Below the pieces are notes generated by a model, which worked only from the letters and a program-made list of their open reading frames with translations, was not told where the DNA came from and did no database searches. DNA of 34,304 nucleotides from Alkalinema sp. RU_4_3 (GTDB lineage Bacteria; Cyanobacteriota; Cyanobacteriia; Leptolyngbyales; Leptolyngbyaceae), in contig JAAUSA010000023.1 of assembly GCA_012031975.1 (NCBI GenBank), positions 1 to 34,304 of the forward strand. Direction: 5' to 3'. Each line of letters opens with the position of its first letter. Position 1 is the stretch's first letter. This document shows, in pieces, positions 6,991 through 28,663 of the stretch. Both the position numbers and the translations under genes were made by a program.

Positions 6991-7790
6991 CTAGTATTTG
7001 GGCTTCAAAGACAGATCTTCCGGTGTAATAGGCTCATCCTCCGATCGATACCCTGCTTCCTGTTCAGCATAGGATCGATAGCCCCCCTGCTGCTGCTGGT
7101 TGGGCCAGCGTTCGTTCGCTTGACGCAAGGCCCGATTGGCTTCCTCAACGGCGGGCTCATACCACCGCTGCCGATAAATCAGCTCCAAATCCCCACCCAC
7201 CTTCGTGAAAAATTCCTCCTGCTGGGCTTGACAGGTCACAAAGACCCGCAGAAAAGCCAGAGCTATAATGGCCACGATCATCCCGCCCGCCGTCGTAATC
7301 AAAGATTCACCGATCCCCGCCGAAGCCGCAGCAAGACCCTCACTGCCCTTGCCACCAGCACCCCCAATATCCAAGTTCTCAAAGGTTTTAATCAAACCCG
7401 TCACCGTACCCAATAGCCCCAGCAACGGTGCGATCCCCACGGTACTTTCGAGCAGCTTATCGCCCCGGCGCATCTTCGCGAATTCTTCTTCGGCGGTGGT
7501 TTCTAAGGCCAAGCGGAAGGTCTCAGGGGTGGGGGATGTCAGCTTCAATGGCACGATCAAAAACGTCCGATCGGCAGATCCCTTGCCTTCTGAGCAATCA
7601 TCCTGGCATCCGTCAGGCTATATTCTGCCGCCTTCAGCACATCATGGGTAATCTTACTCTCTTGGATCATTAACCTGGCCCAAAATAGCGATCGCTCTAA
7701 CCCACAGGCGATTGTCAGTACCGATAGCCCCACCAGGGGAACCATCGTCGGACCGCCTGCTACGAGTGTTTCAAAAAGATTTTTCGACAT
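6991..7790 (-). CDS. exbB: Biopolymer transport protein ExbB/TolQ/MotA family (frameshifted in this sequence)
   Basis: This is the proton-channel subunit of the ExbB-ExbD motor. The first frame (from ATG 7790) gives an N-terminal helix VPLVGLSVLTIACGLERSLFWARL and ends at DLPIGRF. The second resumes with LIVPLKLTSPTPETFRLAL, then EEEFAKMRRGDKLLESTVG, the helix APLLGLLGTVTGLI and a third helix TTAGGMIVAIIALAFL. Adding one base to the run of five A at 7559-7563 (plus strand) restores a single protein of about 266 residues. The lesion is in a homopolymer and is most likely a read error. The C-terminal 50 residues are Gln/Glu-rich and divergent. The family is clear; whether it serves TonB or a Tol-like role depends on the partner. 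Confidence 0.88.
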
Positions 7791-7870
7791 AATTCCAGAT
7801 TGAGAATTTCCACTAATATCCCTTGCGCCCCCGCAACTCTATAAGCTTACTGGGATGTGTGGATTATTAG

Positions 7871-7970
7871 GTTAAGATCCGGTTATTGATTGACTAACAA
7901 ATGACTAATTGTCTCCAGGTTAACAAACTAAGCTGAAACGTTAACCCATTAGTAAACCCAGAATTAACAA
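7871..7970. promoter_or_regulatory. Array of TTAA/CTAA motifs at 11-base steps
   Basis: Between exbB and the Crp-like gene, units starting at 7871, 7882, 7893 and 7904 (GTTAAGAT, GTTATTGA, ACTAACAA, ACTAATTG) are spaced exactly 11 bases apart. A second, looser group follows: GTTAACAA at 7919, GTTAACCC at 7940, GTAAACCC at 7952 and ATTAACAA at 7963. The period equals that of the Pho box upstream of pstS, but the match to the consensus is weaker. It may bind SphR or another regulator on one DNA face and could control either divergent gene. Confidence 0.4.
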
Positions 7971-8017
7971 TTTCTAGTTACAGTGTTTTTGGCAACACAT
8001 TCAAGGCCCTAAACCTT

Positions 8018-23210: not shown

Positions 23211-23582
23211 CTAGGGTAAATTGAGCGTGTGTTTCAGGGCGGGATCGACATCCGTTGTGGGTACTGTGCCAATCACTCGATACAAGGCTGATATGGTGAT
23301 TGTGGCCAAATTGTCAGTCATCACTACTGAGTCAGACAGTAGGCCAGACTGCTTACCTACGGGAGAATTCAGCCGAATGGTGACACGACTGGGGTGCCCC
23401 GAGCGAAACATTTGGCTGGTGATCATCGCGACAATAATCTGGGGGAGTCCTGTCTGGAGATCGTTGGCTTGGATGACTAGGGCTGGGCGGGTTTTGGCGG
23501 TGGTGAGGTCGGCATTTGGGAAGTTGACGAGTACCACGTCGCCGCGTCTAAAGGTTGGCTTTGGCGGCATCGTAGTTGTCAT
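23211..23582 (-). CDS. MazF/PemK-type toxin
   Basis: This is a sequence-specific mRNA endonuclease toxin of the MazF/PemK family (123 residues). FRRGDVVLVNFPNADLTTAKTRPALVI carries the family N-terminal strand pair and the conserved Arg-Pro. VAMITSQ and GLLSDSVVMTDNLATI match the second half, and the tail ends in a helix. It overlaps the 3' end of the antitoxin gene by 35 bases, a normal layout for such pairs. Active-site residues typical of MazF (Arg in KTRPALV, Thr/Ser in ITS) are present, so it looks functional. Confidence 0.88.
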   Translation of the reverse strand: MTTTMPPKPTFRRGDVVLVNFPNADLTTAKTRPALVIQANDLQTGLPQIIVAMITSQMFRSGHPSRVTIRLNSPVGKQSGLLSDSVVMTDNLATITISALYRVIGTVPTTDVDPALKHTLNLP

Positions 23583-23799
23583 AAATACTCATTTCGGGGC
23601 TGTTCCAATCTTCTGAGAAGGTGGCGAGACTGGTGCGCAGAATCTCGGCTTGTTCGAGGTCAATGCCCTGAGAGGCTAAATCGATCGTGTTTGGCTCGAT
23701 AAAGGTCACGATCACCCGCGCTCCTTCCCGCGCGTCGCTGGAAGGCTCCGTCAGTTCGATATGACCGTTGCGATAAATACCTTCAACGCTGGTTAACAT
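23548..23799 (-). CDS. Antitoxin of the MazF-type toxin
   Basis: The 83-residue protein lies directly before the toxin and overlaps it by 35 bases. The N-terminal half (VEGIYRNGHIELTEP, REGARVIVTFIEP) resembles small DUF104-like antitoxin beta-barrels that bind DNA. The acidic C-terminal half (EQAEILRTSLATFSEDWNSPEM) would wrap the toxin. A strong ribosome site (CAGGAGG) precedes the ATG at 23799, consistent with antitoxin being made in excess. Function is inferred from position and shape. Confidence 0.75.
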   Translation of the reverse strand: MLTSVEGIYRNGHIELTEPSSDAREGARVIVTFIEPNTIDLASQGIDLEQAEILRTSLATFSEDWNSPEMSIYDNYDAAKANL

Positions 23800-23810: not shown

Positions 23811-23977
23811 GGATTGCGGCGACCTCATAGGTGTCATTTTAGCTCAGAGGCGCGATCGCGCACCTCAGTAGATCGAGCCCCAACCCGATCGACCCCAAGG
23901 CTATCCCTTCGCCTGCCCCACGATGAGCGCGATCGGCCTTTAACCCAGGACAATGATTACCCTAATTTCTTCAATGC

Positions 23978-25042
23978 CTATTTCCCTATAGTAAAAGTTG
24001 GCATTTCAGGAGAAATCGGCGCTTCTTTAGCAATTTTGCAAGCCAGGGAAATCATCCTTACAACAGAATGCAAGCAATATTCAAGCGCATCAGGAGCAGA
24101 TTCATCATCTTGCTTAGAAGCTTCAATCCATTCAGAAGTCGTCTCAAATGGAGAGCCTTTTGAACGAATTTTCTTTACTGCGAAAGGATCAGATGGTATT
24201 GGGAAATAGATTGAAGGTAGATTTTCTAAGCTGCTATCAGGAAGAAACCTCCTGATGATAAATCCACGGCCTGTTGCCTGCCCCAAAGGCACGTAGTGAA
24301 CAACTAAATCCCGGTAAGCAGATAACTTTGCTAACCACCCCTCCTCAGCTTCGTCGGTTATTCTATAAATCTCAGAAGCTATTGAGATATCCACAATTCC
24401 ATCTTTACCTATTTGTTTTCTCAAGGATGTCATTAATCGAATTCGATTATCCGGATTTAGAGAATTTTTGAGTACAAAATTTGCAACGAATTCAGCCAAA
24501 TAATCTCGAAGAGTACATAACTCTCGCAAAAGATCATGAGTTTCTAAATAGATAGAAAACGAGTTAAGCGTTTCAATTTTACCAGGAGAAAAATGCTGCT
24601 GCTCGCACAAAGACCAAAGCTCAACATTGTATGATTCAGATAATTTTCGGAGCCTTAGTTTACAAGCTCTTATCTCAAAAGAAATTCGACTACAAATATC
24701 CATTAATTCAACTTCCCCTGCCTTAAATGCAGCATTGGCTAAATAACTCCACTGACTCTCCAATTCTGCATTTTCTTGACCAGCGTGGAAGGGGTACCAT
24801 GTAGGCGGGTAGTATCCCTGTGCCTGCTGAAGATTCTCATAGTAATCAATCCCTACAATTTTGAATCGCAATGAGGTTAAACTCAACGGCAAATCATGAT
24901 ATTTTTCTATCGAAAATGTGTGTATGGGGTTGTCGTTTTTGCCAAGAGGAATAATAACTTCTGCTCCTGGATTGTTAACGGCTCTCAGCCCACCTAATAA
25001 ATGAACTATACGAGTAACATTGTGCCACGTTCCTTTAGTCAT
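23978..25042 (-). CDS. Unknown protein with HEPN-like R-x4-H motif
   Basis: I do not recognise this 354-residue protein as a named family. It is soluble, mostly helical in its middle (about 90-200: FEIRACKLRLRKLSESYNVE, ETHDLLRELCTLRDYLAEFV), and carries AYRDLVVHYVP near residue 250. R-D-L-V-V-H is an R-[N/D]-x3-H motif as in HEPN ribonucleases. A Ser/Pro/Phe-rich region and a final helix (EYCLHSVVRMISLACKIAKE) follow. The ATG at 25042 has AGGA 6 bases upstream. The gene is AT-richer than its neighbours and contains no HIP1 octamer, both signs of transfer. It lies upstream of the toxin-antitoxin pair and beside an ftsH remnant, in an accessory patch. A role in defence or as a toxin is inference. 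Confidence 0.65.
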   Translation of the reverse strand: MTKGTWHNVTRIVHLLGGLRAVNNPGAEVIIPLGKNDNPIHTFSIEKYHDLPLSLTSLRFKIVGIDYYENLQQAQGYYPPTWYPFHAGQENAELESQWSYLANAAFKAGEVELMDICSRISFEIRACKLRLRKLSESYNVELWSLCEQQHFSPGKIETLNSFSIYLETHDLLRELCTLRDYLAEFVANFVLKNSLNPDNRIRLMTSLRKQIGKDGIVDISIASEIYRITDEAEEGWLAKLSAYRDLVVHYVPLGQATGRGFIIRRFLPDSSLENLPSIYFPIPSDPFAVKKIRSKGSPFETTSEWIEASKQDDESAPDALEYCLHSVVRMISLACKIAKEAPISPEMPTFTIGK

Positions 25043-25144
25043 GCAAGTTCCTAAAAAAAATCGGAGATTTTGCTATTGTAGCTTTGCTCTAGATGATAGT
25101 AGAAGATTCTTGCCATTCCACCGAACCGTACTAGCGTCATTCAG

Positions 25145-25186
25145 GCAAAAAAGAAGGCTTGGAGTCCATGGACTCCAAGCCTTCTT
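25145..25186 (-). terminator. Intrinsic terminator with perfect 36-base palindrome
   Basis: Bases 25151-25186 form a perfect palindrome with 18-base arms (AAGAAGGCTTGGAGTCCA and its complement). On the minus strand it continues into TTTTTT. It would end transcripts coming from the ftsH remnant and ribBA. Confidence 0.85.
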
Positions 25187-25210
25187 CAAATCTGACAAGC
25201 TAACCTAAAC

Positions 25211-25523
25211 CTAGGCAATACTCGCCATCTTCACATCATTGGTCGCGAGCAACTCTTGCCGTTCCTCCGCATCCACGGTTTCCTTCTCCATCAGCATCGC
25301 AGCCAACTTATCCAGCACCACGCGGTTTTCCACCAGGGTTTGCTTGCAACGACGGGTACGCTTGGTCAACCAAATTCTACACCTCATCATCGATCGCCGC
25401 CGCCGTTTCATCGGAGAAATCGCGCTCCGCTATGATGTCCCGACCCAGGAACATACTGCCCTGCGATCGACCCAACACCACAGGCCCAAGCCGATCGCTC
25501 ACACCAAAGCGAGTCACCAAACG
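25211..25523 (-). pseudogene. ftsH: 3' remnant of an ftsH gene
   Basis: Only about the last 105 residues of FtsH, the membrane AAA zinc protease that degrades damaged membrane proteins, are present. Translation gives RLVTRFGVSDRLGPVVLG, then SMFLGRDIIAERDFSDETAA, then AIDDEV followed by an in-frame TAG and NLVDQAY. After one extra base come KQTLVENRVVLDKLAAML, MEKETVDAEE and LLATNDVKMASIA. The catalytic HEXXH and AAA parts are missing, and the match begins 12 bases after the ribBA stop. It is a recombination remnant with an intact terminator behind it. An in-frame stop, an extra base and the missing 5' part make it non-functional, though the extra base could be a read error. Confidence 0.85.
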
Positions 25524-25535
25524 ATTGATTCAGTA

Positions 25536-27278
25536 CTACGCTGTCTCAGCCACCAAGACAGGAACCGCCGCCTCAACCCGCGAGAACCCATAGATCGTCT
25601 GCAACTGCCAACAGTCATCCTTCAGCGCCGATAGCTTCTCCATTGGATAGAGATGGCGATCGACCTGCACCTGTTGCAACCCATTCAAAGGATCCGCACC
25701 GCTGGCCACAATAAACACAATCTGGTCCACGGTACTCGCCTGGGCAAGACTCGTCAGGAAATGGTGGACAGCCTGGTGATGCTGGTGGGTTTTGTCGCAG
25801 TACCAGTCAGAGTTTTCGCCAAGGGTTTCCTCGGAGCCGAGATTGATAATCAGGGAGGCTGGACCTAGGACCGCATTGGCCACGGGTCTGGTTTCCTCCT
25901 GCAAAGTCAATCCCAAACTCTGGGCCATGAATCGAATCCGCTCCAGCCGCTCGTAACGCTCCGTCAGACTTTGTGGATCGTCACACCAGGAAAGGGCGAT
26001 CGTGGCCAAGGCGCTGCGCATGAACAGGTGGCCCAGTTTCTCCGCCTTAGTCGTCAGGTAGACCGAATTGTGGGGGTTGGCTTCAATGAGCAGGGGGACG
26101 CGATCGATCAGTTCTAGACCATAGCCCTTCAATCCAGCGATCTTACGGGGATTGTTAGTAATCAAACGCACCTGACCGACCCCCAGGTCATTCAGAATCT
26201 GGGCACCCACGCCGTAGTCGCGCAGGTCGGCGGGAAACCCCAATCGTTCGTTGGCTTCCACCGTATCTAAACCCATATCCTGGAGGGAGTAGGCTCGGAG
26301 CTTGTTCACCAGCCCGATGCCACGGCCTTCCTGGCGCAGATAGACAATCACACCTTGGCCCGCATGTTCAATCATCTTCATGGCCGCCTGGAGCTGACCT
26401 CGGCAGTCACAGCGCAGGGATCCTAGGGCATCACCCGTCAGGCATTCCGAATGGACCCGCACCATAATCGGCTGGTGGGCAAACTCCTTAGGGTCGCCCT
26501 TGACGATCGCCACATGCTCCGTACCATCGAGCTGATTGCGATAGCCATAGATCTGAAAGGTACCAAACTGCGACGGCAGCTCCGCCACGGTCTCACGGGT
26601 GACGAAGCGCTCATGGCGCAGGCGATAGGTGATTAGGTCGGCAATGCTGATCAGTTTGAGATCATGGTCGCGGGCATATTCCACCAGTTCAGGCAGCCGG
26701 GACATTGAGCCATCGGGGTTTTGGATCTCGCAGATCACGCCTGCGGGGGCCAACCCAGCCAACACTGACAGATCCACCGCCGCTTCGGTATGGCCCGCCC
26801 GCTTCAGGACGCCGCCATCGCGGGCACGCAGGGGGAAAATATGGCCAGGGCGACGCAGATCGCTCGGTATGGTGTCTGCTGCCAGGACCAACTGGATGGT
26901 TTTCGATCGATCCTCCGCCGAGATGCCCGTGCTGACGCCATGCTTGGGGGAAGCGTCGATGCTGACGGTAAAGGCGGTTTGATTTGGATCAGTGTTATTA
27001 CTGACCATCAAGGGAATATCAAGTTCATCTAGGCGCTCACCTGTCATCGCAAGACAGATCAGGCCTCGGGCATGGACGGCCATAAAGTTAATCATCTCGG
27101 GCGTGGCAAACTCCGCTGCGCAGATCAGATCGCCTTCATTTTCGCGATTCTCATCATCCACAACGACGATCGCCTTTCCAGCCTTCAAGTCAGCAAGGGC
27201 TTCCTCAATGGGGTCAAAGGTGAGCGGTGAGCTAAAACCGGGGTGGCAAATCTGAGTGAGAAGTTCAAAGCGGAACAC
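25536..27278 (-). CDS. ribBA: Bifunctional RibBA (DHBP synthase / GTP cyclohydrolase II)
   Basis: This enzyme makes the two riboflavin precursors: 3,4-dihydroxy-2-butanone 4-phosphate from ribulose 5-phosphate, and the pyrimidine from GTP. The RibB domain (about 20-220) has [29 protein letters not shown] and [28 protein letters not shown]. The RibA domain (about 225-420) has [24 protein letters not shown] with zinc-binding Cys, then [22 protein letters not shown] and [11 protein letters not shown] further C-terminal extension of about 150 residues ([18 protein letters not shown] onward) is seen in other cyanobacterial RibBA proteins. The start is a GTG at 27278, as no ATG precedes the catalytic region. 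Length 580. No FMN riboswitch is seen upstream. Confidence 0.93.
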
Positions 27279-27589
27279 CAGTTAAGTTTTGTTAGGCTTT
27301 ATCAAATTATTCTAAGCTTATTCACGGATGGTTGGTTGGTATCAGGAAGAACCTGAGATCGCCGGGACATCCGGAGGAAGCTGCTGTCGATCGCGAGGTT
27401 TAGAGAATATAAAGATTAGTAGATGTAGCACCCGAACCCTGTTTTTTCTTCGCGTCAATCTACACCAGGATAGATGACAGGAACGAAAAAATAAAGCTAC
27501 TCGCTCTTTCTCAGGAGAAAAGTCGTCGCACCGAATCAAGACATTGGGCATTACAATGCAGCAATCTCTATTGAGGTCGAGCGTAAGTA
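27279..27589. other. Divergent promoter region of ribBA and argC
   Basis: This 311-base stretch between ribBA (minus) and argC (plus) must hold both promoters. I see AT-rich patches (for example TTATCAAATTATTCTAAGC near 27299, GAGAATATAAAG near 27402) but no riboswitch, tRNA or reliable operator. Confidence 0.5.
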
Positions 27590-28663
27590 ATGGGTGATGC
27601 AGGGCGGGTTCCAGTCGGTATTGTGGGGGCTTCAGGCTACGGCGGCGTGCAGTTGGTCCGTCTGTTGCAGGATCATCCCCTCCTTGAGGTGGTTTACCTC
27701 GGGGGCGACAGTAGTGCGGGGAAGGACTATGTGGATGTCTACCCCCATCTGATCGGTGCTGTCAATCTTAAGGTTGAGCCGATTGATGTGGATGTGATCG
27801 CCGATCGCTGCCGAGTGGTGTTTTTGGGACTGCCCAATGCCTTGGCCTGCGATATGGCACCAAAACTCTTGGAGCGGGGCTGTAAAGTACTGGACCTTTC
27901 GGCGGACTACCGTCTGAAGGATATGGCGGTCTATAAGCAGTTCTATAGCTCGGATCTCAAGGGGAAGGTGCGATCGGACGGCGATGTATTGGAAACCGCC
28001 GTCTATGGCCTGCCGGAACTGTATCGTGAGCAGCTCAGAGAGGCTAATCTTGTGGGCTGTCCAGGCTGCTATCCGACAGCGAGTCTGCTGGCCCTGGCGC
28101 CTTTGTTCAAGCAGGGCTTAATTGAGACGGATACGGCGATCATTGATGCGAAGTCAGGGACGTCGGGGGGAGGCCGCCAGGGGAAGGTCGGCATGTTGCT
28201 GGCTGAGGCGGATAACGCGATCGCCCCCTATGGCTTGGTGCGTCACCGCCATACGCCGGAAATTGAGCAGGTCTGTTCGGATCTGTCGGGCCGGGAGGTG
28301 CAGGTGCAGTTCACGCCGCATTTGGTGCCGATGGTGCGGGGGATTTTGGCGACGGTCTATGCGAAGCTGCGGGATCCGGGGCTGGTGCGGGATGATCTGT
28401 ATACGATCTACAACGCCTTCTATCGGAATAATCCCTGGATTAGGATGCTGGAGCCGGGCGTTTATCCGGCGACGAAGTGGGCCTACGGTACGAATCTTTG
28501 CTTCATCAGTGTGGAGGTTGATCCGAGGACCGATCGCGTGATCGTCATGTCGGTGATTGACAACCTGATGAAGGGTCAGGCGAGCCAGGCGGTGCAGTGT
28601 CTGAATCTGATGATGGGTTGGGATGAGACCTTGGGTCTGCCGAAGGTGGCGTTTTATCCCTAA
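27590..28663 (+). CDS. argC: N-acetyl-gamma-glutamyl-phosphate reductase ArgC
   Basis: ArgC catalyses the NADPH-dependent reduction of N-acetylglutamyl phosphate, the third step of arginine synthesis, in the cytosol. The 357-residue length matches the family. The Rossmann motif [18 protein letters not shown] opens the protein. The catalytic Cys lies in [19 protein letters not shown], followed by [15 protein letters not shown] and the catalytic-region His in [10 protein letters not shown]. The C-terminal part contains [19 protein letters not shown] and [20 protein letters not shown]. The ATG at 27590 has GAGG about 13 bases upstream. The frame is intact. Confidence 0.96.

Follow-up and report, generated by a model that had tools for sequence, protein, structure and literature searches.

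A stand-alone, horizontally moving gene with a predicted HEPN-type ribonuclease domain in the cyanobacterium Alkalinema sp. RU_4_3: a candidate for abortive-infection defence

A recently acquired gene of an uncatalogued family is present in a stretch of 34,304 nucleotides (referred to here as the window; contig C227 of a 5.25 Mb source genome) of the cyanobacterium Alkalinema sp. RU_4_3. The gene occupies positions 23978–25042 on the minus strand, starts with ATG and has 354 codons encoding 354 amino acids, and the list of open reading frames of the window confirmed it as real. The sequence, a structural model and full-length homologues indicate an N-terminal alpha/beta domain followed by a HEPN-like helical domain. 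The favoured reading, held with somewhat better than even confidence, is that the product is a stand-alone HEPN-type endoribonuclease that carries a regulatory domain of its own at the N-terminus and serves in abortive-infection defence. The protein probably cleaves RNA at a HEPN-type active site and, by shutting the cell down, may block phage infection.

The base composition of the gene (GC 39.4%, GC3 0.32) is unlike that of the flanking ribBA, creD and MazEF-type genes (GC 52–58%, GC3 0.61–0.78), as claimed in the original prediction. Late acquisition, which had also been proposed, held on the basis of this deviant composition and of a genome comparison in which none of the 41 other genomes of the host's family (0/41) carried the gene. 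Apart from the window copy, a sample of 386 genomes of the phylum contained no more than two complete copies and a remnant. The absence of HIP1 sites had been taken as a further sign of acquisition and was dropped as evidence. The gene does contain 0 such sites, but the 28 sites in the 34.3 kb window correspond to only ~0.87 expected per 1,065 bp, with a probability of finding none of ~0.42, and with only ~0.9 expected the absence is therefore uninformative; the HIP1-free stretch (23860–28216) also spans the host-like ribBA. No unoccupied insertion site was found, and the neighbourhood on the ribBA side differs in the relatives examined. A decayed 3′ end of ftsH lies between ribBA and the HEPN-like gene (25202–25500, minus strand); it encodes the C-terminus of an M41 peptidase (Pfam 2e-5) and contains an in-frame stop and a frameshift.

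Comparison of copies in different genera showed that DNA homology ends close to the edges of the gene. The copies of Coleofasciculus (L007) and Dolichospermum (L008) are 85% identical in DNA over 1,162 bp, and the shared DNA consists of the gene and 65 bp upstream and stops at the stop codon, with unrelated surroundings. The window copy is 77% identical to both, over the coding region and little beyond. An element upstream of the window gene (25073–25084, minus strand; AAGCTACAATAG) has a counterpart, AAGCTACGATGG, in the corresponding position ahead of the L007 and L008 homologues, the consensus common to the three copies being AAGCTAC(A/G)AT(A/G)G. This element is a candidate −10 promoter region that would travel with the gene. 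Further upstream, a perfect hairpin followed by a T run (25151–25186, minus strand; fold −33.3 kcal/mol, z −5.8), which was missed by a simple terminator scanner, is a predicted terminator insulating the gene from upstream transcription. Because of the limits of homology, the common upstream element and the hairpin with its T run, the HEPN-like gene appears to move on its own as one self-contained unit. Dolichospermum ST_sed8 (L020) retains only a 70-bp remnant at the site holding the whole gene in L008 and L009. The remnant (within L020 7980–8747) lies around the catalytic motif and is 100% identical to L008, with flanks mostly 84–93% identical; the rest of the gene was lost, and the 70-bp piece is fused in frame to the downstream ORF. 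In Paucibacter sp. B2R-40 (L021 165–1697), a fragment of a homologue is fused in frame to what, judged by eye, resembles a tyrosine recombinase of the integron type, hinting at integrons as possible movers of the gene.

The gene had been described as an orphan, a description that did not stand: full-length homologues exist in three phyla or more. The distinct homologues number at least 14 and come from Cyanobacteria, Planctomycetes and Beta- and Gammaproteobacteria, several of them being on plasmids, including full-length copies on plasmids of Trichormus and Acinetobacter. An alignment-based scan of genomes returned 15 loci, including two remnants and two near-identical pairs, and one more homologue was present in a further proteobacterial genome. 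The family has a sporadic distribution and moves horizontally. Single-protein scans of genome and viral collections for close relatives returned nothing, and phage records and viral contigs, the latter also covered by the alignment scan, contained no relative. Pfam and NCBIfam gave no credible match for any aligned family member, PADLOC-DB 2.0 models matched 0 of 13 members, PHROGs gave no match for the query protein, and none of the family libraries tied any member to HEPN; sequence searches of the PDB also gave no credible relative. Since homologues exist and the libraries give no credible match, the gene belongs to an uncatalogued family rather than being an orphan. Because Pfam, NCBIfam and PADLOC (2023) do not recognise the family, nor PHROGs the query, it is overlooked by annotation pipelines. 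A block of 3.5 kb is shared at 99.9% identity between a Legionella MAG and the betaproteobacterium Eoetvoesiella caeni (L012 414–3913 and L013 94–3593), which implies either recent transfer or mis-binning. This block contains a 253-aa gene without an assigned role, the HEPN-like gene and a PD-T4-6-type kinase.

The original prediction had pointed to an R-D-x3-H motif in a helical protein, and both features were found. The motif R244-D245-L-V-V-H249 (24296–24313, minus strand) has the Rx4-6H form with a polar residue after the arginine, and helices make up most of the protein from residue 94 onward. Conservation was counted on 13 aligned proteins with ~26–77% identity to the query. The arginine and the histidine are invariant (13/13), and position 245 is D in 12 proteins and N in one. 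R179, D180, Y181, A183, E184, W236, Y243, L246 and P252 are also invariant in 13/13; when labels were shuffled among the invariant columns, the Rx4-6H spacing arose 15% of the time. The AlphaFold2 model (pLDDT 82, pTM 0.85) predicts a core of four helices: helix 1 (residues 111–147; 24602–24712), helix 2 (161–190; 24473–24562), helix 3 (236–257), which carries the motif, and helix 4 (319–338; 24029–24088), all on the minus strand. Short helices are present between helices 2 and 3, and a long insert with a beta hairpin (260–279) separates helices 3 and 4. In the published HEPN layout helix 3 ends with the Rx4-6H motif, R is followed by a polar residue, mostly N, D or H, and the conserved acidic residue, when present, is on helix 2 (PMC3710099). 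A second acidic motif, Ex3[KR], is typical of HEPN domains and not universal (PMC3710099). The window protein has the invariant segment R179-D180-Y181-x-A183-E184 on its predicted helix 2, with the acids D180 and E184 not in the exact Ex3[KR] form.

Structural comparison of the model with HEPN proteins gave a mixed outcome. VIA-align placed Csm6 (6tug, Z 8.2) and five or more HEPN toxin entries, including 8xdj (8.0), 6m6w (7.9), 5yep (7.7), 8xeh (7.6) and 7bxo (7.3) all among the top matches, with nearly the whole of the 130-residue toxins aligned, but these scores lie inside the range stated by the tool for helical bundles, unrelated helical proteins scoring Z 7–9 and GPCRs 7–8. Foldseek with the model returned nothing below E 0.3. 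In profile comparison (hhalign), RDLVVH was aligned on the RN-x3-H motif of the HepT set, and 19 of 150 block shuffles were equally good; no significant match was obtained to the HepT, AbiU2, Cthe_2314 or DUF4145 sets. The proposed signature of a HEPN ribonuclease therefore stood in its motif and fold layout, with HEPN topology and HEPN toxins among the best structural matches, and did not extend to structural scores above background or to significant HepT profile similarity. The helical domain might instead be a non-catalytic bundle in a binding or adaptor protein, with R-D-x3-H playing a structural part. The overlap of the structural scores with the helical-bundle background and the non-significant profile similarity would fit such a protein, which is nevertheless improbable, as the arginine, the polar residue, the histidine and the helix-2 acids occur at the expected HEPN active-site positions in three phyla. 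Outside the motif, HEPN families are highly divergent, and a non-significant profile match therefore lowers confidence in the HEPN assignment rather than excluding it. Taking motif, register and predicted topology together, this assignment is considered very likely.

Among known systems, the HepT toxins of the HEPN/MNT type (MntA-HepT; PDB 6m6w, 7bxo, 5yep) share with the model the four-helix bundle, R244 and H249 in register with the R-N-x3-H of HepT, and a structural coverage that is nearly full-length. In contrast to HepT, the window protein has an extra N-terminal alpha/beta domain and a long insert between helices 3 and 4, and its sequence similarity is not significant. No gene of an MNT nucleotidyltransferase was recognised beside the window gene or its homologues in the ORFs and annotations examined, and for this reason the family is not placed with HepT/MNT. 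Csm6 of type III CRISPR systems (CARF-HEPN; 6tug) has a similar layout, with a regulatory N-terminal domain and a C-terminal HEPN ribonuclease, whereas a fold search with the N-terminal domain of the window protein alone gave no CARF match. Other stand-alone HEPN families, AbiU2 and Cthe_2314 among them, resemble it in having a site of the R-polar-x3-H type and in being stand-alone or defence-linked genes (PMC3710099), but no HMM match was found to these families, and the hhalign scores for AbiU2 and Cthe_2314 were no better than those of reversed controls. The window family may work in the manner of other HEPN ribonucleases known from conflict systems, such as HepT, Csm6 and Abi proteins. It would be a new family, so far unannotated, of the highly diverse HEPN superfamily, and it corresponds to no known PADLOC system.

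The N-terminal alpha/beta domain (residues 1–90; 24773–25042, minus strand), delimited from the model and the alignments, spans residues 10–84 in the full model and is proposed to have a sensor or regulatory role. The alignments show R11, H14, G17, G18, N23, P32, G64 and G76 to be invariant. The domain modelled alone (pTM 0.65) gave weak fold matches to vasohibin (Z 5.6) and Sm-like barrels (Z ~4), with no clear relative and no CARF match. From the analogy with other sensor-HEPN proteins, we infer that this domain regulates the ribonuclease. In the proposed mechanism, the gene would be transferred singly between distant bacteria, and the N-terminal domain would keep the enzyme off until a trigger related to infection or stress. 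The helical domain would dimerise, bringing two R244-D245-x3-H249 sites opposite one another, and the predicted HEPN site would cleave RNA independently of metal, leaving 2′,3′-cyclic phosphate ends. Translation would then halt, and growth arrest or death would restrict the spread of phage. A bolder version, in which HEPN ribonucleases of this family form a single-gene abortive-infection system in at least three phyla and their own N-terminal domain, of unrecognised fold, directly senses phage, is plausible but tentative, and is given somewhat less than even weight. If active, the protein would extend the known HEPN effectors by a compact one that is encoded by a single gene and has an unclassified sensor domain built in. 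The two residues R244 and H249 make the hypothesis easily testable.

A position upstream of a MazF-type pair on the same strand had been reported for the gene and was confirmed. A gene of the PemK/MazF toxin family lies downstream (23211–23582, minus strand; Pfam PF02452, 7.9e-18; GC 54%), preceded by a small ORF (23548–23799, minus strand) that is in the antitoxin position as judged from its location and overlap and has no Pfam match. The gene and this pair could form one toxin-antitoxin or defence module, being on the same strand with the gene only 178 bp upstream of the antitoxin-position ORF. Such a module is very improbable, as the pair is host-like (GC 52–54%, GC3 ~0.61, vs 39% and 0.32 in the gene), a HIP1 site lies within the gap between the gene and the pair, and no MazEF-type pair was seen adjoining the other homologues. 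The partnership was dropped on composition and non-conservation, and the toxin gene is probably a neighbour outside the system. The original description of a lone gene without a partner agrees with the homologue loci, in which no constant partner was found. Since the partners change between loci, the family member alone probably forms the functional unit.

Homologues often have defence genes as neighbours, which points to a role in defence; the cyanobacterial copies are mostly among ordinary genes or toxin-antitoxin pairs and not in defence islands. Among the neighbours are a PD-T4-6 kinase (L012/L013; E 1e-165) and a SIR2_2 protein (L015). L018 has a 1,547-aa NACHT/NCAB2 protein whose end lies 30 bp ahead of the homologue's start, L016 an AbiJ-NTD3 protein that begins immediately behind the stop of the homologue, L017 a type III methyltransferase fragment and L005 a VWA-PP2C-kinase triad. 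This set was picked by eye, and its counts are suggestive and do not amount to an enrichment figure. A PADLOC search with ten more distant genes of five of these loci returned a single weak match, to a GTPase-like protein, which is probably irrelevant. If the proteins are active, the homologue loci would mark new defence neighbourhoods in cyanobacteria, planctomycetes and proteobacteria. In L015, a 311-aa gene (7057–7992) overlaps the start of the homologue by 4 bp; its first part appears PIN-like by eye, without a confident Pfam match.

The HEPN ribonuclease may instead serve stress response or mobile-element maintenance and not phage defence, as a toxin restrained either by its N-terminal domain or by an antitoxin encoded elsewhere. 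Some copies are in plasmid or parA/toxin-antitoxin contexts, including L003 and L071 with ParA and the plasmids of Trichormus and Acinetobacter. Toxin-antitoxin pairs flank the Acinetobacter, Rheinheimera and window copies, with RelE-NadS and Txe/YoeB beside the Acinetobacter copy and CcdAB beside that of Rheinheimera. Such a role is nonetheless judged rather unlikely: the family has no conserved antitoxin-like neighbour, and the NACHT, AbiJ-NTD3, SIR2_2 and PD-T4-6 partners are those of phage defence. The Dolichospermum copy L008 also has a BstXI-type restriction system ~3–5 kb downstream. This BstXI-family restriction-modification system (L008 12258–14347) is absent from the otherwise closely syntenic L009.
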